This document shows positions 1 through 17,398 of a stretch of DNA of 45,145 nucleotides, piece after piece. Numbering within the stretch: the stretch's first letter is position 1; the number at the start of each line of letters is the position of its first letter. Below the pieces are notes generated by a model. It was not told the origin of the DNA. It was given only the letters and a program-made list of their open reading frames with translations, and did not search any database. The position numbers and the translations under genes were made by a program. The stretch is from a bacterium (GTDB lineage: Bacteria; Electryoneota; Electryoneia; Electryoneales; Electryoneaceae), in NCBI GenBank assembly GCA_019912845.1, contig JAIOHU010000138.1, positions 1 to 45,145 on the forward strand. The letters run 5' to 3'.

Positions 1-3000
1 GCCTGTGATGTCTGCAGGTTGTACGAGTTGAACGTTTTGCAGGTTTCTCGCACGACGTTCGAGCAAGCCAGCATGATTCGCAGTCGCGATTTCTTCGTCT
101 TCGATATAAACAATATCTGAATACCAATCTGCTGGTAGACCACCGATATTTCCAAGAGTCAGGATATCGCTATCTTGTTCACCCCAGTTTATCTCAAAGT
201 CAAAGAACTCTGGATCAACTATAAGTTCTGGTGGAATCTCGTGGTCGAGTTCGAAATCGAGTACAGTAACTTCACCTTCAATCAAATCTGCAACAACAAT
301 GTCTGAAGGATAATAACCAAATGCATCTGCCATAACATCCCAGTTACCTGTTCCTAATGGATAGGTATAGTAACCATCTGCATCTGTTTCCACTTCGGCT
401 ACTGGCTCTTCACCATTTTCAGCCCAGATCGTTACAAGGGCACCCTCAAGAGGATCGCCAGTATCTGAATCTGAAACAATACCTTCCAGTGAACCTGGAT
501 CACCAACCATCAGGGTTACCCAGACAGTGGCGGGATCAAGAGTATCTGGATAGGAAACGTTGAAGTCGATTGTTGCTTCGTAGACACCCGGAAGCTCGAC
601 GTCAATAGCATTTGCCATTACATCCAGATCAGTCTCGTCACCAATTTCAAGCCAACCATCACCTGGTTCAACTGTCAACCAGCCAGCAGAACCTGCATAG
701 AGAACAGCGTAGGCAATTGTATTGCCAAGAATGTCTGCATTTACCCAGCCAATATTCCAGCCGATTTCCCATGTCATGGTTGATATAAGAATCGTACCAC
801 GTCCCATTTCAACTTCGACCAGTGTTGGCTCACCGAGAGAAGTGGTTGCAAGAATGTTTGCATCTTCTGGAACATCATTAATGATATCATGTGAATCAGA
901 ACCACCAGTCCACTGCTCTGGAATATCCATCATGATTTCATGTTCTGGCATATTGTTAAAACCAGTACCACTTGGCGCATAGGTGTTGCTCATGCCCCAG
1001 AGGTTCCAGTTATATCTTTGGGTACATCCACCGAAGATAATCCAACCACCATCATCCATGAAGTCGAGGAAACGTTCCTCATTATCTTGAACTGTATTCA
1101 GGAAGTTCTGACTTTGAACGTTCGTGAAGATGATACAAGTGTATTCATCGAGATCATGATCAGCCATTTGACCTGAATTTATCATATCAAAAGGCACTTC
1201 CATCTCATCAAGGAATGCTTGGTGTGCGGGAGCACCCCAGGCGTCATTGTCTTGGATAATCAGGAAATAAGGATCATCCAGCTCATTTGCATAAGGAGCT
1301 GTTGGGATATTCGGGTATGCGTTAATATCTGTTGTAGAGGGTAGATTGAAGTCAGGAGTTACTCCTTCAACGATACGAGTATTCAGATACTCGCGAGCGT
1401 TGCGGCGCATCCTGTTCACTTCATCTTCCTCAATATAAGTGATGTCGGAATCCCAGTCTGCGGGAAGTCCACCATCCAAGTTGCCAAGTGTAACGATATC
1501 AGCATCATTTCCAAGCCAGCCTACTTCAAAGAGAAGTTGTTCTGGATCGGCTGTTAATACTGGCGGAGTTTCATGGACAAGGGCGATATCAAACTGAGTA
1601 ACTTCGCCTTCAACCACGTTCGCAGTCAACATATCTGATTCGTAGTAACCCAGCGCATTTGACCAGACTGTCCAGTCACCTGTACCGAGCGGATAGATAT
1701 ATTCACCGTTTTCATCGGTCTCGAGTTCTGCAATGGGTTCTTCCAGATCGCCCCAGATGACAACTTCAGCACCAACGATGGGATCTTCTGTTTCACTGTC
1801 ATAAACGACACCCTGAAGTGTACCAGGATCACCAATCAAGAAGGTTACCCATACGGTTACATCATCAAGAGTATCAGGCCATGCAACGTTAAAGTCGATT
1901 GTCGCTTCATAAACACCGGGAAGCTCAACATCAACAGCATTAGCAAGAACATCGATTTCTACCAGTTCATCAACTTCGAGATGTCCGCTGTTTGGCTCGA
2001 TTGAAAGCCAACCACCACCACCGGAAGCGACCAAGAGTGCGTTCGCCATGAGACGATCACAGTTACTTGCCGGGTTCCAACCACCATTAATTACATCATT
2101 GGATGGTGGGAAGAGACCGAGTGCGACTGTAACACCAGCATCAAGCTCTTCACGAACCGCTGCAACCGCACGTCCATCACCCCAGTCAGCGACACGAAGC
2201 GCTTCTGGATGAACTTCCATGGTTGACTGACGATAGGAAGAGGTACCACCATCAAGTTCTTCGATTTCTTCCATCATCAGGTGGTTCGCTTCAAAAACTT
2301 CACCTAATGTCTGCTGCGGACCATACTGGTTGCCTGAAGTCGGGAATGCGTAATACTGCTCTGTATTCCAACGACCAAGCATATATACACCTGCTGATTC
2401 GAACACAGCAGTTACAACACCGTATCCTTCATCAACATAGTCAGCCATTACATCACCAACACCAGCACGATCCAAGTATTGGTAGTTCGTCCAAGTCATC
2501 ACCGCATCGTATTCCATCAACTCTTCAAGAGTTGGTACCACGAAACGAGCATCTACAATTGTAATAGTTTCAAACAATTCCAATGCAGCCAATTTCGCCG
2601 CGACATCTTCTGGATAACCAGGGGTGTCTGCAGGATAAAGCAGTACATTGGCATCATCAAGCTCACCATTACCATTTATTACACGAGCGATTTGATCTGG
2701 ATTTGCAACAACATCTGGACCATTCGCACCTATGGTTGTTTCCAAAGGATAACTGGTGAGTGGACCATCAAGAATACCGGAACGTTCGATCCAGTTCTGG
2801 ACAACGCGTTCACGACGTGCTTGATCATTGTTGCCATGTGCTGCAATTTCATCTTCAATATAGGTAATGCTTCCAGACCAATCGGCTGGCAAACCACCGA
2901 TATTGCTGAGTGTCAGGATATCGCTGTCCGAACCAAGCCAACCCGCTTCAAAATCAAAGAATTCGGGATCAACAACGAGTTCGGGTGCAATTTCGTGATC

Positions 3001-5397
3001 CAGCATGATATCATGAATCGTTACTTCACCTTCCACTAACGCTACAGTTTCAACGTCGGATGGATAATAGCCCATTGCATTACCCATTACATCCCAGTCA
3101 CCTGTACCGAGTGGATAGGTATAGTATCCATCAGCATCTGTTTCAACTTCAGCTACTGGCTCTTCGAGGTCGCCCCAGATTGTTACCAGCGCACCTTCGA
3201 TGGGATCGCCAGTATCTGAATCTGATACAATACCTTCAAGTGAACCTGGATCGCCAACATTCATGGTTACCCATGATGTGACTACAGCGCCTTCTTCTGT
3301 ACCGTCATCATACCAGACATCAATTGAAGCTTCGTAGATACCAGGAAGGTCAACACCGGAAGCATCTGCAATAACATCCAGATCCATAATGCCAGCGGGT
3401 TCAACAGTACCTGCATCAGGTTCCACTGTCAACCAGGCACCAGAACCAACCCACAATGCGTCATACTCAATCATGTTGTGCATGATGTCGCCAGCAACCT
3501 GACCGTTGGGTACAGCAAATTCAAGGGTCTGGGTGCTTAATACAATATTTCCGCCACCGTATCCAAGTTCAATAAGAACTGGACGCTGTTGTGTGTCAAC
3601 GCAAAGAACAAGGGCATCATCTGGAACATTGTCAATATATCCATGATTGGCGGATGTTCCCGTGAAGTTTTCAGGAATTCCTTCCATCATAGGATGGTCA
3701 GGCATAACTACCTGGTTATTACCATCGCCTTGATGGACATAAGCCATGTCATTCCAGAATGTCCAGGTCGCCCCTTGAGTACAACCGTGGAATTCGAGAC
3801 AACCACCGCCATCAACCCACTCTTCAAAGCGATCAATGTTGTTCATGAAGTTGTTGTAGAAATTCTGACCCTGTGTGGATGGGATCATGATAACATTGTA
3901 TTCTTCCGTATCGAAGTCATAGTCTGCCATTGAAGCAGAATTGACCAGATCGAAAGGAATACCAAGTTCGTTCAGATAATCTTGATGTGAATTATTCCAG
4001 GGAACCTGATCCTGGAACAACAGGAAGTAAGGATCATCAAGTTCACTGAATTGAGGTTCAGTTGGAACAACATTGAAGATATCACTTGACGGACCGTTGT
4101 AATTAATTGTGGTACCACGAGTTGCACGGAAATTAGCTGCATTTTCGCGTACCATTCTACGGAAGTCCATAATTTCTTCATCTTCGATGTAGGTAATGTC
4201 GACCCAGAAATCGATGTCGGCACCACAATCGCCAAGATGTGAAATTGTAAGGATATCAGAGTCGGATGCGAGCCAACCCACATCAAATGTGAATTGATCG
4301 GGATCCGCACTGAGTTCTGCCAGTGGTTCCATTTCGATATCCACTACATTATCGCCTTCTTCCAACACAACGTCTACCTCTGCCATCGCAAAGCCTTGAG
4401 CCATTGCACGAGCAGTGTAGCCACGTGAATAGACGCCTTCAATCATGTAGTAACCATCTGCATCGGTGGTTGCCATCAGGTTACCGAAGTATACTTCAGC
4501 ACCTTCAACAGCTTCACCATTACAGGTGTTAGATACAATACCTTCAACGTTCGCATCCGGATCTGCGAATCCACCTTCATTGATGGTGAAACCAACTGCA
4601 GATTGTTCAGCGGGAATATCATTAGCATTGTTGTAGGTATACATAATACCATCTTGACCACCAGGACCTTCAATACCAATTGTACACCCTGCCTGGTCAA
4701 TGTTTGGCGAATAGGATAGATACTGCAAAACAATATCGCCATTTGAATAAAGGATAATCTCGGCGTTAACGTTGTTCTGGTCTGGACCATTGGGGTATTC
4801 ATCCCAATCCGCAAACTGAATAACAGTGTAGTCACCGAAGTTTTCGATGTAAGCCATACCATCCGCACCATTCGCAGGATCCATATCATCCCAGTACCAG
4901 GCAATGATGTTGTTTGGAGTTGCGGGGTTCGGAAGATCGTGGTTACCAAGATTTGTCATTCCATCGGTTTCAAAACCGATCATACCGTTGGAACCAAGAT
5001 AAAACTGATCGTACGTGTTGCCATAGAATTCGAAGTCGAATCCGATGTCAAATGGACCTGTATAGGCATCATCACCAGGGATTTCTAATGCATCGCCTGT
5101 TTCAATGATGTCAATCCAGTCATACGCTGGTCCATTGCCTTCGTCACTGTCAAAATAATAGTAACCGAAGCCGTCCGGGCCACCCGTACGATCCAATTCA
5201 TTGTCACCAACTAATGCTTCAGTGACTAATTCAATTGCTTCCTTCTGATCCGGAGTAAGCTGTCTTCCATCTTCCATTGCCTGCCAGGCTTGCTGGGCAC
5301 GCTCTTGCAAGTCATTGGAAATTTGTTGTGCAGATAACGCTGCACTGGATAGAATCAGCAGTACTCCGAGACACAAAACAAGTGAAACTTTTTTCAT
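1..5397 (-). CDS. Giant secreted multi-repeat protein (3' end outside window)
   Basis: One frame stays open from an ATG at 5397 to the left edge, giving 1799 codons without a stop, so the C-terminus is missing. An AAGGAGAG Shine-Dalgarno sits just upstream. The protein starts with a signal peptide (MKKVSLVLCLGVLL...ALSA). A nidogen-like/choice-of-anchor beta region follows at about residues 80-270. Next come carboxypeptidase-regulatory-like beta-sandwiches (LEGIVSDSDTGDPIEGA type) starting near residues 285, 715, 1190 and 1630. They alternate with a short module (VDPEFFDFEAGWLGSDSDIL type) and domains of about 200 residues resembling ThuA/class I glutamine-amidotransferase folds (DDPYFLLFQD...VDGGGCLEFHG) near 448-641, 916-1130 and 1368-1563. 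Related proteins in FCB bacteria are exported and end in a C-terminal sorting domain, which I expect beyond the edge but cannot see. The role is unknown; a surface or extracellular adhesive or binding protein is an inference. Confidence 0.85.
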   Translation of the reverse strand, partial: MKKVSLVLCLGVLLILSSAALSAQQISNDLQERAQQAWQAMEDGRQLTPDQKEAIELVTEALVGDNELDRTGGPDGFGYYYFDSDEGNGPAYDWIDIIETGDALEIPGDDAYTGPFDIGFDFEFYGNTYDQFYLGSNGMIGFETDGMTNLGNHDLPNPATPNNIIAWYWDDMDPANGADGMAYIENFGDYTVIQFADWDEYPNGPDQNNVNAEIILYSNGDIVLQYLSYSPNIDQAGCTIGIEGPGGQDGIMYTYNNANDIPAEQSAVGFTINEGGFADPDANVEGIVSNTCNGEAVEGAEVYFGNLMATTDADGYYMIEGVYSRGYTARAMAQGFAMAEVDVVLEEGDNVVDIEMEPLAELSADPDQFTFDVGWLASDSDILTISHLGDCGADIDFWVDITYIEDEEIMDFRRMVRENAANFRATRGTTINYNGPSSDIFNVVPTEPQFSELDDPYFLLFQDQVPWNNSHQDYLNELGIPFDLVNSASMADYDFDTEEYNVIMIPSTQGQNFYNNFMNNIDRFEEWVDGGGCLEFHGCTQGATWTFWNDMAYVHQGDGNNQVVMPDHPMMEGIPENFTGTSANHGYIDNVPDDALVLCVDTQQRPVLIELGYGGGNIVLSTQTLEFAVPNGQVAGDIMHNMIEYDALWVGSGAWLTVEPDAGTVEPAGIMDLDVIADASGVDLPGIYEASIDVWYDDGTEEGAVVTSWVTMNVGDPGSLEGIVSDSDTGDPIEGALVTIWGDLEEPVAEVETDADGYYTYPLGTGDWDVMGNAMGYYPSDVETVALVEGEVTIHDIMLDHEIAPELVVDPEFFDFEAGWLGSDSDILTLSNIGGLPADWSGSITYIEDEIAAHGNNDQARRERVVQNWIERSGILDGPLTSYPLETTIGANGPDVVANPDQIARVINGNGELDDANVLLYPADTPGYPEDVAAKLAALELFETITIVDARFVVPTLEELMEYDAVMTWTNYQYLDRAGVGDVMADYVDEGYGVVTAVFESAGVYMLGRWNTEQYYAFPTSGNQYGPQQTLGEVFEANHLMMEEIEELDGGTSSYRQSTMEVHPEALRVADWGDGRAVAAVREELDAGVTVALGLFPPSNDVINGGWNPASNCDRLMANALLVASGGGGWLSIEPNSGHLEVDELVEIDVLANAVDVELPGVYEATIDFNVAWPDTLDDVTVWVTFLIGDPGTLQGVVYDSETEDPIVGAEVVIWGDLEEPIAELETDENGEYIYPLGTGDWTVWSNALGYYESDMLTANVVEGEVTQFDIALVHETPPVLTADPEQLLFEVGWLGNDADIVTLGNLDGGLPADWDSDITYIEEDEVNRMRRNAREYLNTRIVEGVTPDFNLPSTTDINAYPNIPTAPYANELDDPYFLIIQDNDAWGAPAHQAFLDEMEVPFDMINSGQMADHDLDEYTCIIFTNVQSQNFLNTVQDNEERFLDFMDDGGWIIFGGCTQRYNWNLWGMSNTYAPSGTGFNNMPEHEIMMDIPEQWTGGSDSHDIINDVPEDANILATTSLGEPTLVEVEMGRGTILISTMTWEIGWNIGWVNADILGNTIAYAVLYAGSAGWLTVEPGDGWLEIGDETDLDVMANAIDVELPGVYEATIDFNVSYPDTLDPATVWVTLMVGDPGSLEGIVSDSDTGDPLEGALVTIWAENGEEPVAEVETDADGYYTYPLGTGNWDVMADAFGYYPSDIVVADLIEGEVTVLDFELDHEIPPELIVDPEFFDFEINWGEQDSDILTLGNIGGLPADWYSDIVYIEDEEIATANHAGLLERRARNLQNVQLVQPADITG
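197..3290 (-). repeat. Intragenic tandem repeat of the carboxypeptidase-regulatory module
   Basis: Three copies of a DNA segment of about 250 bp lie inside the giant gene, around 240-525, 1570-1850 and 3000-3275. A matched anchor (GGATCRCCAA...GGTTACCC on +) falls at 497, 1826 and 3248, so the spacing is 1329 and 1422 bp. The copies are near-identical over long stretches even at silent positions, which suggests recent duplication or gene conversion. A fourth, more diverged copy lies near 4323-4560. The intervening amidotransferase-like domains have diverged much more, the middle one most of all. Confidence 0.8.
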
Positions 5398-5619
5398 CGT
5401 GCCTCTCCTTGATGTCAGGTTTTGGTTTTCAGACACGTAGCCTGAAAACTCGCAAAATCATGCACCATTCTTCAGAGAAACCATGTCAGAGTTGTGCGTG
5501 AATGGACGCATCTTAATTTAGGTTACAAAATAAAATGGTTTATGGTTTATATTCATCTGGTTTTCAAATATCATGAATCACTAAAATTGATACAGGTTCA
5601 CAAAACACAAACCGTGTTG

Positions 5620-6075: not shown

Positions 6076-7980
6076 TTAGCTGATTTTAAGTCCGGGAGGC
6101 ACATTTGCATCAACGGTTAAGAGGTTTAGCGAATCGCCATCACGCACAGCCAATAACATCCCTTCGCTGCGCACACCTCGTATTTTAGCTGGCTGCAGAT
6201 TCGCAACCACGATAATCAGCTTTCCGACGAGCTTTTCCGGGGTATAATGTTGTTGAATACCTGCAACCAATTGTCTCTCTTCTGATCCAAGATCAATCTC
6301 GAGACGCATTAATTTATCTGTCCCCTTAACAGGCTCCGCAGATTTAATCCGAGCGGTTTTCAACTCTACTTCTTTGAAACGTTCTATGGGAAGCAATCCA
6401 TCTGGAGAAATTTTGAGTTCCTCCTTTTTAGCAGGGCTCTCTTTTTTCTCTGTGGCTTGTTTCGGAGCATTCACCCGTGGAAATACCGGCTCGTCGAAGA
6501 AGGACTCTTTGGCTCGCGTGGTAGTATTCCAAGCTGTGTCCTCCCACTCATACTGATCAGAGGCTGGAGCTCCTATACGTTTCATCAGCTCCTGAATTTT
6601 ATTGGGCATTATCGGGCTTAACAGCACTGAAGCGATTCGGATTCCCTCAAGTGCTCTGGCGAGAGCATTTCTGGCTGATTGAGGGTCGCTTTTCGCACTT
6701 TTCCAGGGTTCTGCCAGTGTAAAATCACGATTGATCGCCCTGATAAACTGAAGCGTCTCCTCTATCGCCGAGTGAATTTGAAGATTTTCCACCATGGTGC
6801 GAACAGAGAATGTTGTTTTTCTTGCCAACTCGAAAATTTCATCTTCTTCGGTATCCTCGAGGTGGAGTGTCTCTCCCGGGAAATGTTTGCTCTGTATTTT
6901 GGCAACACGACTTACAAGATTGCCGAGGTCATTGGCGAGGTCAGAGTTGACACGTTTGATAAAACTCTCTTCGCTGAAAGAGGCATCCTGCCCGAGTACC
7001 ATTTCTCTCATCAGCACATAACGAAACACATCAGCACCATAGACTGTTGCGAGGTCTAATGGTTTTATCACGTTTCCTGTTGACTTGGACATTTTGGCTG
7101 AATCTTTCGCCAGCCACCAGCCATGCGCGAAGATATGTTTTGGCGGTTCCAGGTCGGCAGCTTTCAGCATCGTCGGCCAATAGACAGCGTGAGTGGTGAG
7201 AATATCTTTACCGATGAGGTGATAATCGGCAGGCCAGGTTGGATGCGTTCCTTCTGGTGGTGAGAGGGTGGCGGAATAGTAGTTCAGCAGGGCATCAAAC
7301 CAGACATAGGTTACATAATCGGTGTCCCATGGTATCGGAATTCCCCAGCTTAATCGGCTTTTCGGACGGCTGATACAGAGGTCTTCCAGCGGTTTCCGTA
7401 AAAATCCAAGCACTTCATTCATCCGGAATTCAGGAAGAACGGCATCTTTATTTTTTGTGTAGTAATCAATCAGCCAATCCTGATATTTCGACATCTTGAA
7501 GAAATAGTTTGTCTCCTGAATTTTCTCTACAGGACGATGTCCGATGGGATCTTTTCCATCTATTAGGTCTTTTTCCGTAAAAAATTGTTCCTCAAAAACT
7601 GAATACCACCCAACATAGTCTTTTTTGTAGATTTCACCCTTTTCATTCAGTTTGTTCAGGACATCAACCACAATTTTTTCGTGTCGGGGTTCAGTTGTAC
7701 GAATGAAATCATCGTTACTGATCCCCAGTTGTTCCCAGACATCAATAAAACGTTGCGCGAGCCCATCGCAATATAATTTCGGGTCTTTGCCAGCTTTGGT
7801 TGCAGCATTCGCAACCTTTTGCCCGTGCTCGTCCGTGCCAGTCAGAAAGTGGACATCTTCACCAAAGAGACGGTGATACCTGGACAAAACATCTGCAAGG
7901 ATCGTCGTATAGGCGTGTCCGAGGTGAGGTTCGTCATTAACATAATATAGGGGAGTGGTTAAATAGAATGACTTGCTCAT
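6076..7980 (-). CDS. metG: Methionine-tRNA ligase
   Basis: Class I aminoacyl-tRNA synthetase that charges tRNA-Met in the cytoplasm. The HIGH signature is HLGH at residues 19-22 and the KMSKS signature is at 296-300. At 634 residues it has the full catalytic core, the alpha-helical anticodon domain and, from about residue 530, the C-terminal EMAP/Arc1p-like OB-fold tRNA-binding domain that mediates dimerisation in bacterial MetRS. The connective-peptide region (YVGWYSVFEEQFF) has no cysteine zinc knuckle, matching the zinc-free variant common in many bacteria. The start ATG overlaps the ricT stop by 4 bp, so the two are probably translationally coupled. It is the last gene of envC-like > holB > ricT > metG. 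Confidence 0.97.
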   Translation of the reverse strand: MSKSFYLTTPLYYVNDEPHLGHAYTTILADVLSRYHRLFGEDVHFLTGTDEHGQKVANAATKAGKDPKLYCDGLAQRFIDVWEQLGISNDDFIRTTEPRHEKIVVDVLNKLNEKGEIYKKDYVGWYSVFEEQFFTEKDLIDGKDPIGHRPVEKIQETNYFFKMSKYQDWLIDYYTKNKDAVLPEFRMNEVLGFLRKPLEDLCISRPKSRLSWGIPIPWDTDYVTYVWFDALLNYYSATLSPPEGTHPTWPADYHLIGKDILTTHAVYWPTMLKAADLEPPKHIFAHGWWLAKDSAKMSKSTGNVIKPLDLATVYGADVFRYVLMREMVLGQDASFSEESFIKRVNSDLANDLGNLVSRVAKIQSKHFPGETLHLEDTEEDEIFELARKTTFSVRTMVENLQIHSAIEETLQFIRAINRDFTLAEPWKSAKSDPQSARNALARALEGIRIASVLLSPIMPNKIQELMKRIGAPASDQYEWEDTAWNTTTRAKESFFDEPVFPRVNAPKQATEKKESPAKKEELKISPDGLLPIERFKEVELKTARIKSAEPVKGTDKLMRLEIDLGSEERQLVAGIQQHYTPEKLVGKLIIVVANLQPAKIRGVRSEGMLLAVRDGDSLNLLTVDANVPPGLKIS

Positions 7981-9428
7981 TGCTCTTCTTTTCCTTCCTG
8001 CTTCCCTCTGGGAGAGTTATTTTGGTTTTTTCTGTTCCCTGAAGGTCGATAGTTTTTTTTATTCGATCCCTGACGGGGATGTTTTTTTCTGTTGTCGTAA
8101 TTCGCAGATTTTCTGTTTTTTTGCTGGTTTTCTGGATTCTCGATTTTGCCATCATCTGGTCTGGCTAAGTCTTTGTCTGACAATACAATTACTTCGCTTT
8201 GCTGTCTGGGTTGTTGCTTTCTCTTGTTCTGGTTTCTGCTCTTCTGGGATCGATTTTTTCCGGACTCGTTTGAACGGTCGTTTTTGTTGTTCTGTCTACG
8301 ATTCCCTGAAGGTTTTTTTCTTCTGTTGTTTTTCTGGTTTTTATTTTTGTTTGTCTGCTCCTCATCGTCACTAAACTCTTCACCTCCATAAACCTGCTTC
8401 AGGTCATCGATAAAGCTGGACGAAGAGGAAGAGCCAACAAGTACACCATCACCTTTCTCGTTCTGAGACGGGTCTTCCTTGAAACGTACCACCATTTTTT
8501 CGTCAAACGTTTCTGGGTCCCAGTTCGAAAACTGACGCATCTGTTTTTCAGAATAGGAGAACTTGCTGCCATCTCTCCATGCGATACCACAGGAGACTGT
8601 GCAACGGTCTATTTTTTCTACTACCCCCTCGCCACGAGGTCCTTCTACTTTTGTGCCCAACACTGGGAAAAGACTGTTTACCGCACGGTATTCATCAATT
8701 TCATAGCGTAAACAACATCTCAACCTGCCGCAAAGACCTGTGTTCTTTTGTGGATTGAGGATAAGGTTTTGCTCTTTAACCATATTTGTGGTTACAGGTT
8801 GAAACTCTCTTATCCAACCAGAGCAGCAAAGCTCCCTCCCACAAAGCCCAATTCCACCGAGACGTTTTGCTTCATCTCTCGCACCTATTTGACGCAGATC
8901 GATCCTGGTTTTAAAATGATGTGCGAGGTCTTTTACCAGTGCACGAAAATCGACTCTACCATCCGCTGTGAAATAGAAGGTCAGTTTTTTGCGGTCGAGT
9001 TGAAATTCTGCATCCACCAGTTTCATTTCAAGATCATTGTTCCGAACAAATTCCTTGAAAATCGGGCGTGCTTCCTTCTCTAGACGTCTATTTTCTGCTT
9101 CCAACTCATGGTCGGTACGGTTTGCAAGCCTTAGTACGGTTTCCTTTTCATCTCCACATTCGTTTCGTAGTCGTTCCTGCCATTTTTCTCCGACAAGACT
9201 AACTCTACCAATATCCTCGCCACGGTCAGCTTGAACAACTACGGCATCCTCTTTTGATAATGGAAACTGCAGGGAGTTTTCATAAACACCTTTTCGACGT
9301 CCTTTGAATTCTATTTCAACAAGCAGCATATCATTTTCACCTCCTGGAAACTCCACTTCTTCATGCTCAGGTGGTGAATGTTCCTCGATTTTCAGCTCGT
9401 TTTTTTCCTCTATATCTGAATAAGGCAT
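7977..9428 (-). CDS. ricT: RicT/YaaT (PSP1-domain) protein with long basic tail
   Basis: PSP1-family protein. In Bacillus, RicT (YaaT) works with RicA and RicF as an Fe-S-containing complex affecting RNase Y-dependent RNA processing. Visible hallmarks are the PSP1 core (KKLTFYFTADGRVDFRALVK) and the two cysteine clusters GLCGRELCCSGW (about residue 195) and GLCGRLRCCLRYE (about residue 233) that supply the cluster ligands. The last ~140 residues form a low-complexity N/K/R/Q-rich basic tail absent from Bacillus YaaT; such tails are common in FCB homologues and may bind RNA (inference). It lies 16 bp downstream of holB and overlaps metG by 4 bp, reproducing the conserved holB-yaaT neighbourhood. 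Confidence 0.9.
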   Translation of the reverse strand: MPYSDIEEKNELKIEEHSPPEHEEVEFPGGENDMLLVEIEFKGRRKGVYENSLQFPLSKEDAVVVQADRGEDIGRVSLVGEKWQERLRNECGDEKETVLRLANRTDHELEAENRRLEKEARPIFKEFVRNNDLEMKLVDAEFQLDRKKLTFYFTADGRVDFRALVKDLAHHFKTRIDLRQIGARDEAKRLGGIGLCGRELCCSGWIREFQPVTTNMVKEQNLILNPQKNTGLCGRLRCCLRYEIDEYRAVNSLFPVLGTKVEGPRGEGVVEKIDRCTVSCGIAWRDGSKFSYSEKQMRQFSNWDPETFDEKMVVRFKEDPSQNEKGDGVLVGSSSSSSFIDDLKQVYGGEEFSDDEEQTNKNKNQKNNRRKKPSGNRRQNNKNDRSNESGKNRSQKSRNQNKRKQQPRQQSEVIVLSDKDLARPDDGKIENPENQQKNRKSANYDNRKKHPRQGSNKKNYRPSGNRKNQNNSPRGKQEGKEEQ

Positions 9429-15319: not shown

Positions 15320-17398
15320 TTATTTCAGAAGCATCAGCTTCTGAGACAGTGTTTGACCGTTGGTGGTCATACGTACAAAATAGACACCACTGGTAAGATC
15401 GCTGTCACCAAAACCGATTGTGTGTTCGCCAGCAGAACGTACGCCATTCAACAGAGACGCAACTTCACGTCCCATCACATCATACACTGCAATTTCCACT
15501 GTTCCAGCCTGTGGAAGTGTAAAGTGGATGCTGGTGCTGGGGTTGAACGGGTTCGGATAGGCTGTCAGGAGTGCAAATTCACTGGCAACCGCATTGTTCT
15601 GATCTTCAACTGAAGTTACATCGGCGATAACACGAACTTCAAATTCGTACTGATCAATACCAGCGTTGAAGGTATAGCTACTTTCACTGTTCATATCGAC
15701 TACATCACCATTGCTCAGGTTTTCAAGTACAAACTGGAATCCTTCAGGCGTTGTAAATTCGATGGAATTCCAGCTCAAAGTAACGTCTTCTTCCATGTTG
15801 GATACGACCTTGAAATCATAAACTGAAGTCCCGATTGGTAGCACATTCCGGATATCGTAGCTGAAACCTGTTTCTTCCAGTTCTGGAATCCAGTTTGGAC
15901 GAGTGATCAGAGTGCGAACAATCGCCTCATCCGGTGGAGATGGAGGTGCAGGGAAATCGAAATGGTGGTCATAGCCATTCGATGCGTTTGCATTTGCACC
16001 AATATAAAGGGCACGATCATAAATGGCATTTTGTTCAGCAGTGATATTCACAATCCAGTTGGCAGCGTTAATATCATCGCTACGTTCATCATCAAGCTCG
16101 CCATCGCCATTGTTCAAGTTTAACGCTGCGACTGGCAGTTCCATCGTGATACCTTCTTCGAGCACCAGCAACCAATAGCCAAACCATGGCTCAAATGTAG
16201 TCGTAGAAAAGTATCCTAGTTGTGGAGTGCAACCCCAGAGAACCGGAACAATCAAGCTTGAGTCGGCAGCTTCGGTCAAGGTGTAGGTGCCACCATCATA
16301 GTGGAATAACGCATCTTCAAGGTTCGCAGAAGCATTAAATGGATCACCTATGATATTCCAGTTATCTTCCAGCTCCCATTCAAAGGATTCTGTGTTTTCC
16401 AGACCTTCAACCTCGACCCATGTGGTATCGTGGGCGATTGCAAGCCAGTAGCCAGGGCCGGTGTAAACTGAATCTGGACGGAAATAGCCTGTTGAATAAT
16501 AGAACTGATAAAAGTCCCAGATACCGGGGATATCATCACCGATAACATTGTCTGGTGACTTTGGTGAATTGGGTTCGAGCGGAACACTCATCAGTGTCCA
16601 TCCCGGGTAGAACAGATGGCTGTCCTGTTCAATCTGCTGACCTTCGGGAAGATCAGAATCAATCCAGATGGGATCAAAGTTGTCTGGTCCTGGATCATCA
16701 CCGAGATAACCATCATGACCGTTTCCTGTGATATCCGTTACAGTCTGACCAGTACCTTCATCGAAATTATAGTAGGCAACAAGTCCCGCAGTTGGAACAG
16801 TAATACTGGATTCGAAATTATCCGCGATTTCCTGAGCAGTACGTGCAACATCCCAGACACGAAGTTCGTCAATGGCACCGTTCAGCGGTTCATCAAAATC
16901 GCCGTTCAACTGATCCTGGTCGATTCCGATATAAAGCGAACCGATTTCCAGGGTACCGCCTGGCATATTATCAACTTCTGCAAGCTGACCGTTGATATAA
17001 AGCTCGATGTCGCCATTTGCCTGACGTACAACTGCAGCATGGAACCATTCATTCAGGTTATATGCCGCACCTGGATCAAATGGTGTGGATTTAATATACG
17101 GGGTCAAACCGCTATTTTCCGGTGAATTCGGATACCAGTAAAAATGGGTATATTCATTGTCGTTACCCAGCTCACCAAATCCGGAAAATACCGTGGCAAA
17201 ACGGTCTTCGTTTTGTTGATCGATGTAAACCCAGTACTCAACTGTACATTCGGTTACACCATCAAGACCCGCAGCGTCCAGAACAGCAAAACGGGGATCG
17301 TCAACTCCATCAAACTCAAGTGCATATCCTGCGAAAGAATTGCTCGCAGAAAAGGCTAACAATACTCCAAGCACTAGAAAAAGCTTGAACATTTTCAT
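15320..17398 (-). CDS. Secreted LamG-domain protein with C-terminal sorting domain
   Basis: Signal peptide MKMFKLFLVLGVLLAFSASN ending near SFA. A LamG/concanavalin-like domain follows at about residues 25-200 (ALEFDGVDD, ECTVEYWVYI, NGAIDELRVWDVARTAQEI). The middle region has repeated W/Y-rich beta segments (GWTLMSVPLEPN, NWNIIGDPFN). The last ~85 residues are a FlgD-Ig-like type A sorting domain (AYPNPFNPSTSIHFTLP, VYDVMGREVASLLNG, SGVYFVRM, KLMLLK), the tail recognised by type IX-like secretion in FCB bacteria. LamG domains usually bind glycans or mediate adhesion; the ligand is unknown. AGGAGAAG precedes the ATG. The gene stands alone, with its own terminator and a 332-bp upstream gap. 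Confidence 0.9.
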   Translation of the reverse strand: MKMFKLFLVLGVLLAFSASNSFAGYALEFDGVDDPRFAVLDAAGLDGVTECTVEYWVYIDQQNEDRFATVFSGFGELGNDNEYTHFYWYPNSPENSGLTPYIKSTPFDPGAAYNLNEWFHAAVVRQANGDIELYINGQLAEVDNMPGGTLEIGSLYIGIDQDQLNGDFDEPLNGAIDELRVWDVARTAQEIADNFESSITVPTAGLVAYYNFDEGTGQTVTDITGNGHDGYLGDDPGPDNFDPIWIDSDLPEGQQIEQDSHLFYPGWTLMSVPLEPNSPKSPDNVIGDDIPGIWDFYQFYYSTGYFRPDSVYTGPGYWLAIAHDTTWVEVEGLENTESFEWELEDNWNIIGDPFNASANLEDALFHYDGGTYTLTEAADSSLIVPVLWGCTPQLGYFSTTTFEPWFGYWLLVLEEGITMELPVAALNLNNGDGELDDERSDDINAANWIVNITAEQNAIYDRALYIGANANASNGYDHHFDFPAPPSPPDEAIVRTLITRPNWIPELEETGFSYDIRNVLPIGTSVYDFKVVSNMEEDVTLSWNSIEFTTPEGFQFVLENLSNGDVVDMNSESSYTFNAGIDQYEFEVRVIADVTSVEDQNNAVASEFALLTAYPNPFNPSTSIHFTLPQAGTVEIAVYDVMGREVASLLNGVRSAGEHTIGFGDSDLTSGVYFVRMTTNGQTLSQKLMLLK

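Follow-up and report, generated by a model that had tools for sequence, protein, structure and literature searches.

A giant protein of an uncultured Electryoneota bacterium as a probable type IX-secreted scaffold for exchangeable ThuA/GATase-like modules

Why would an enzyme-shaped fold recur along a giant exported protein, and why do its copies differ from one repeat to the next? The question is raised by a gene at the start of the window, by which we mean the whole stretch of 45,145 nucleotides analysed here, taken from an Electryoneota genome that is a draft of 297 contigs. We consider it reasonably probable that the protein is a type IX-secreted scaffold carrying exchangeable ThuA/GATase-like cassettes in beta-sandwich sockets, and that it has been diversified by module exchange.

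Gene layout, missing end and export

The open reading frame runs stop-free on the minus strand from a GTG at 5436 to window base 1, and an ATG at 5397, with a signal peptide behind it, gives a product of 1799 aa. Window base 1 is also base 1 of its contig (C51), which makes the truncation of the gene real. Pfam and our own HMMs place along the protein, in order, a signal peptide, a nidogen-like head (NID), three units of the form CPR-BN-insert-BC and a partial fourth unit that is cut within its linker by the contig end. Measured from CPR start to CPR start, the complete units are 437, 476 and 443 aa long. The features are as follows.

1-5397, minus strand: exported giant protein, 1799 aa, truncated at contig end
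5329-5397, minus strand: signal peptide, aa 1-23, called by eye
4570-5214, minus strand: NID, N-terminal nidogen-like head, with ELD at aa 67-69 (own HMM, 358 bits)
4321-4557, minus strand: CPR1, carboxypeptidase-regulatory domain (Pfam and own HMM)
4171-4323, minus strand: BN1, first half of the socket beta-sandwich (own HMM)
3448-4170, minus strand: insert 1, linker, ELD and ThuA-like module of type a
3247-3447, minus strand: BC1, second half of the socket, BACON-like
2992-3249, minus strand: CPR2
2842-2994, minus strand: BN2
2023-2841, minus strand: insert 2, linker, ELD and module of type b (diverged ThuA-like)
1825-2022, minus strand: BC2
1570-1827, minus strand: CPR3
1417-1572, minus strand: BN3
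694-1416, minus strand: insert 3, linker, ELD and module of type a
496-693, minus strand: BC3
238-498, minus strand: CPR4
88-240, minus strand: BN4
1-87, minus strand: linker of insert 4, with a probable in-frame continuation on contig C165 (from colinearity with the paralog L026)

On the NID head, the Pfam model NIDO scores 13.6 bits, and on the copy of this domain in the paralog L025 it scores 20.1, against a cut-off of 25.

Much of this layout agrees with the initial annotation, which had described a giant exported protein of repeated units with carboxypeptidase-regulatory modules; four CarboxypepD_reg stretches are matched by Pfam, and the repeated units, the length and the signal peptide are as given above. 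Its statement that the beta-sandwich units are nearly identical at the DNA level was too strong for this gene, since the copies of the three main DNA repeat families (218, 128 and 100 nt, three copies each, at spacings of 1329-1332 and 1422-1425 nt) are only 66-87% identical to the reference copy. Between paralogs, the closest framework pair has 93% DNA identity. Taken as a whole, that reading is partly supported; it overlooked the nesting of the module, the differences in module from socket to socket and the fact that the C-terminus can be placed.

Retrieval of that C-terminus had been proposed as a way of looking for a sorting domain, and contig C165 very probably carries the missing end. 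Offset by one unit, the alignment of the window protein with its paralog L026 covers 2993 nt and reaches the last window codon (window residues 822-1812, numbered from the GTG, match L026 residues 334-1324), and C165 (L034:5807-7813, minus strand) resumes in frame at the next L026 residue, 1325, with zero gap and zero overlap. The continuity of C51 and C165 rests on this colinearity with L026, no overlap having been found between the two contigs; if joined, they would encode a protein of about 2468 aa with sockets filled in the order a-b-a-c. The stretch on C165 adds a module of type c, BC4 and a type IX sorting tail (TIGR04183, 37.7 bits, cut-off 23), the domain that the annotation had sought. 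Such tails were found in all four proteins scanned, three of them from this genome, at 36.6-40.8 bits.

The genome also encodes secretion genes, each scoring above its cut-off: SprA (805.6 bits), the T9SS sortase model (PorU; 642.4 bits) and the PorV family (281.4 bits). SprA is the type IX translocon, and sorting tails of this kind lead to the cell surface. At least 150 such tails are present in the genome (150 of the 332 candidates scored), as detected with a profile to which 2 of 14 control genomes also respond, 1 of them above the cut-off. Elsewhere in the window, another gene for type IX cargo occupies positions 15320-17398 (692 aa, with a sorting tail of 53.8 bits), and positions 7977-9428 encode a 483-aa protein whose long, low-complexity tail consists largely of N, K, R and Q; its gene adjoins one that we take to be metG-like. 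On contig C13, a gene open at its 5' end (L033:2-1753) has a NID head and a CPR domain and reaches its stop with no sorting tail visible.

Sockets, cassettes and the mosaic among paralogs

Every complete insert of the window protein is flanked by BN and BC, as detected with our own HMMs. L030 has a BN (66 bits) that runs straight into a weak BC (12 bits), an arrangement without an insert that we read as a putative natural empty socket; across its join, Cep192_D6 and an OCRL-like ASH domain score 19.8 and 18.0 bits, both below cut-off. When the socket halves of the three window units were joined, BACON_2 gave 16.0, 19.0 and 15.3 bits (cut-off 25), and two of the three matches span the join. For a half alone the corresponding scores are 15.9 in unit 1 (second half; joined 16.0), where the first half alone has no BACON match, and 13.0 in unit 2 (joined 19.0), unit 3 being without this control.

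Within the inserts, ELD lies shortly upstream of the recognised module in 21 of 22 cases. It is also present in five of the seven N-terminal segments, the other two belonging to truncated genes with a different head, and ahead of the head in all 10 genes examined from the window's family (f1). As a universal rule the motif was rejected: L028 and L029, both NID proteins, lack it, it does not precede the type c module of L031 or the NID of L032, and it is absent from the f2 and other distant type-a stretches that were examined (L049, L050, L052, L053, L054). Unrelated module types come after linkers that contain Arg pairs and ELD (for example in window 3448-4170), and such a linker may be a processing site or a shared joint.

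The cassette in the third socket of L025 has a likeness outside the sockets. It aligns with the N-terminal heads of all five paralogs compared, starting at about the signal-peptide end, with 50-53% identity over 244-254 residues to the heads of the window gene, L022, L023 and L024 and 42% over 245 residues to that of L027. Aligning in this way from the signal-peptide end on, the insert looks like a mature N-terminal head, leader included, that may have been put into a socket.

Besides the window gene, the genome has six more genes with three sockets. Their contents, assigned from our own HMMs and from alignments, are a-b-a-c for the window gene with C165, a-b-a for L022, a-b-c for L023, b-b-a for L024, a-b-NID for L025, b-a-c for L026 and x-a-b for L027, where module x has no Pfam match up to E 1. 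Segments were compared among these seven genes with three or four sockets, L025 and L026 being without their first residues. In socket 1 of L025 and L026, the framework has 93% DNA identity before the insert and 87% after it, while the inserts themselves are of type a and type b, respectively. In 30-nt bins, identity at the left edge is 83-100% up to the end of BN and then 7-33%, and at the right edge it is 20-50% before the start of BC and 73-97% after it; the drop and the rise each take place within one 30-nt bin, at the socket edges.

When each segment was matched to its closest relative in the other genes, that relative occupied the same-numbered socket in 19 of 22 cases for the framework, as against 10 of 20 for the inserts; leaving aside the first framework segments, which are shorter, have no BC half and may favour their own kind, the framework figure becomes 12 of 15. 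Two further inserts, NID and x, have no homologous insert and stand outside the 20, and the fourth-socket segments of the window have no same-socket partner. Of those 20 inserts, 17 do not share one nearest gene with both of their flanks; such conflicts include near-ties (window I2b: L026 0.825, L022 0.822). Triplet permutation tests (20,000 permutations) reached the floor of p=0.00005 in at least one direction for five of six triplets and gave 0.002 for the sixth; the six were picked after the segment comparison, three being in register and three having partner segments placed from other sockets. In all 17 segment pairs analysed (10 insert, 4 framework and 3 N- or C-terminal), dN/dS by the Nei-Gojobori method is 0.08-0.36, values that are rough, with dS up to about 1, and that point to purifying selection.

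A contig-end tract apart, no exact match between any of the 13 genes compared exceeds 137 nt, and the exact tracts of at least 60 nt that L025 and L026 share do not cross their breakpoint. Contigs C183 and C241 start with an identical 141 nt inside a family gene (L025:9345-9485, L026:1-141), a sequence with no third full copy in the genome. This looks like an assembly branch point, and the start of both the L025 and the L026 gene is therefore missing.

Fold of the modules and competing explanations

The initial annotation had read the domains of about 200 residues as ThuA/GATase-like, a fold that Pfam, a structure match and a moderate model support; we find that this reading holds for type a and probably also for types b and c. 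Pfam ThuA (PF06283) matches the whole window protein with E 1.5e-13 and 51.9 bits summed over three stretches (cut-off 33.4). None of seven matches to single modules exceeds that cut-off, the best being 30.1 in the window's own genome; relaxing the threshold to E<=0.1 brings in 10 of the genome's 11 type-a modules and 7 of its 9 type-b modules. Searched against the PDB, the type-a profile finds ThuA-like 4jqs at E 5.7e-5 and the type-b profile has no match up to E 1, and profile-profile comparison relates type b to type a at 95.7% (E 9e-9) and type c to type a at 91.3% (E 9.5e-7). Structure prediction, which had been suggested for each module, yields a GATase-like model of window module 1 (type a; built from 6 sequences, mean pLDDT 60, pTM 0.63), whereas the whole unit is poorly predicted (4 aligned sequences, mean pLDDT 43), its CPR part alone being well predicted. 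The best Foldseek matches of the module-1 model are class I glutamine amidotransferases (2a9v: E 9.1e-6, TM 0.51, rmsd 6.7). VIA Z scores against the ThuA-like structures 4pxy, 4jqs and 1t0b are 10.0, 9.9 and 9.6, tied with other chains at 10.2-10.5, and this range of 9.6-10.5 is only somewhat above the 7-8 that is the tool's typical level without a clear match. The middle copy, which had been taken to show specialisation or decay, does differ, as a separate module type, b, that occurs nine times in eight genes of the genome; decay is rejected, since type-b modules of the paralogs are 40-91% identical to it and all four type-b pairs tested have dN/dS of 0.08-0.18.

An enzyme-shaped fold invites the reading that the protein is a multi-domain extracellular enzyme, whose modules act on sugars or amides and whose module types confer different substrate specificities. 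Conservation within type a agrees with it, in that 27 of 212 columns are invariant among the 11 modules of the genome, Glu177 being present in all 11 and Cys90, after the fourth strand, in 10. However, Cys90 is replaced by Ala in L032 and in the sister-genus module L041, and types b and c, which retain other residues, do not conserve it. The elbow of GATases has the motif small-X-Cys-X-small, and the G-C-T-Q found around Cys90 in most type-a modules does not fit it. A nidogen-like domain, which is another fold, moreover occupies the same kind of socket in L025. The earlier enzyme-like reading thus keeps its fold, for type a, and loses ground as regards the enzyme: of the Cys-His-Glu triad that was to be checked, the Cys is not conserved across module types, and the His and Glu cannot be placed on a model whose stretches under pLDDT 50 (90-111, 130-140 and 160-184) contain or adjoin the relevant residues. 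We think an enzyme rather unlikely. Given that no catalytic Cys is conserved, and given the design of these proteins, the modules probably bind ligands, perhaps glycans, instead of acting as glutaminases.

The arrangement of the modules might instead have arisen by old paralogy, in which whole units were duplicated, lost and diverged with no exchange of cassettes, and module order would record the units that were retained. The number of units is indeed variable, and window sockets 2-4 and L026 sockets 1-3 have the same b-a-c order in an alignment of 2993 nt shifted by one unit. What makes this decidedly unlikely in our judgement is that the framework keeps its socket position more than the inserts do, that the similar flanks of L025 and L026 enclose unlike inserts, and that relatedness switches within genes, in-register triplets included. 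An assembly or binning artefact, with the mosaics produced by wrong joins among a handful of real genes in a draft rich in repeats, could draw on the several family genes that end at contig ends, on the 141 nt with which C183 and C241 both begin and on the parting of C51 and C165 within a gene. We hold it to be very improbable, since shared exact tracts are short and those of L025 and L026 miss the breakpoint, the segments are diverged rather than copies of one another, open frames are long and dN/dS is well under 1.

We return to a secreted scaffold with exchangeable cassettes. The protein would be secreted via the type IX system, probably to be held on the surface, and would present four sockets, each an Ig/BACON/ASH-like beta-sandwich whose halves, BN and BC, enclose a linker, ELD and a globular module, with a CPR domain linking one socket to the next. 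Cassettes would have been transferred from socket to socket and from one paralog to another, the simplest route being gene conversion or homologous recombination within the conserved BC-CPR-BN stretches, which is also what has been suggested for HsdS. A bolder form of this idea, which we offer as speculative and improbable, is live diversification, in which mature type IX heads (leader, ELD and module) would be mobile cassettes copied into the fixed sockets of giant surface proteins, each lineage drawing on heads from all over its genome to assemble a multi-ligand array of its own. The interest of the locus lies in an enzyme-shaped fold that seems to serve as an interchangeable module, with breakpoints at the socket edges, in an uncultured bacterium; if the proposal is true, it provides a testable account of how giant surface proteins diversify, together with small modules that could be screened for ligands.

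Relatives and known systems

Matches to the type-a profile were found in 15 of 41 genomes searched, the 40 other than the window's own including none of the same genus. By group, they occur in 5 of 7 genomes of family f1 (own genome included), 8 of 9 of f2, 1 of 2 of f8, 1 of 2 outside the phylum and 0 of 21 others, the matches in f8 and outside the phylum being weak. A scan of genome contigs gave 1 locus from 59 candidate stretches. BC units are spaced 475-525 aa apart in three f2 proteins, and in L054 and L051, from f2, the units mostly resemble one another more closely in their first ~250 residues than further on, L055 being less clear. Related genomes have open frames of 10816 aa (G026:C357), 10055 aa (G023:C21) and 8938 aa (G017:C108) that show weak type-a matches.

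Candidatus Electryonea clarkiae (phylum Electryoneota), of the window's family and another genus, has tandem type IX genes (L041-L045) with similar tails and varying heads. Among its six complete genes that are headed by an a or b module, tails have 74-88% DNA identity and a versus b heads 42-47%; the tail of a NID-headed gene has 57-59%. These genes share with the window's genome the same a, b and NID heads, the CPR domains and the sorting tails; their heads, however, are single and N-terminal, and our own HMMs found no BN/BC socket in them.

A literature search, with most subscription papers outside it, found no description of this protein family. In the main text of an Electryoneota paper (PMC10439189), secret-, adhes-, type IX, giant and ThuA are absent; another paper (PMC7686228) touches on ThuA and the glutamine amidotransferase fold. 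The ThuA-like structures 4jqs and 4pxy (BACUNI_01602) and 1t0b have a similar fold but are separate proteins, whereas here the modules are repeated inserts in exported scaffolds. Class I glutamine amidotransferases such as 2a9v are likewise alike in fold, but their catalytic Cys is not conserved across the present module types.

As described in a study of the HsdS subunit of Type I restriction systems, domain movement (DOMO) acts on an x-(domain)-y-x-(domain)-y layout, with the flanking repeats proposed as the recombination site and with changes in domain number (Furuta et al., 2011; PMC3077401). The present proteins resemble HsdS in this layout, in domains common to positions and loci, in changing domain number and in conserved flanking repeats; as in DOMO, such repeats surround variable domains, and related domains are found at different positions. 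They differ in that HsdS carries DNA-recognition domains that vary as alleles at one locus across strains, whereas here secreted proteins, paralogs within one genome, carry several module types. Rearrangement and exchange of adhesin domains have also been described for Kgp, RgpA and HagA of Porphyromonas gingivalis (Dashper et al., 2017; PMC5266723), which are type IX-secreted surface proteins with domain exchange and with repeats that break assemblies, features that the present family would share. In P. gingivalis, however, the domains are cleaved-adhesin and DUF2436 domains, and here they are ThuA/GATase-like modules nested in a beta-sandwich socket. Other bacterial proteins are known to have a mix-and-match design, and a human oral pathogen provides a precedent for domain exchange in type IX surface proteins; what sets the present case apart is the kind of module, the socket in which it is nested and the apparent origin of at least one cassette as an N-terminal head.
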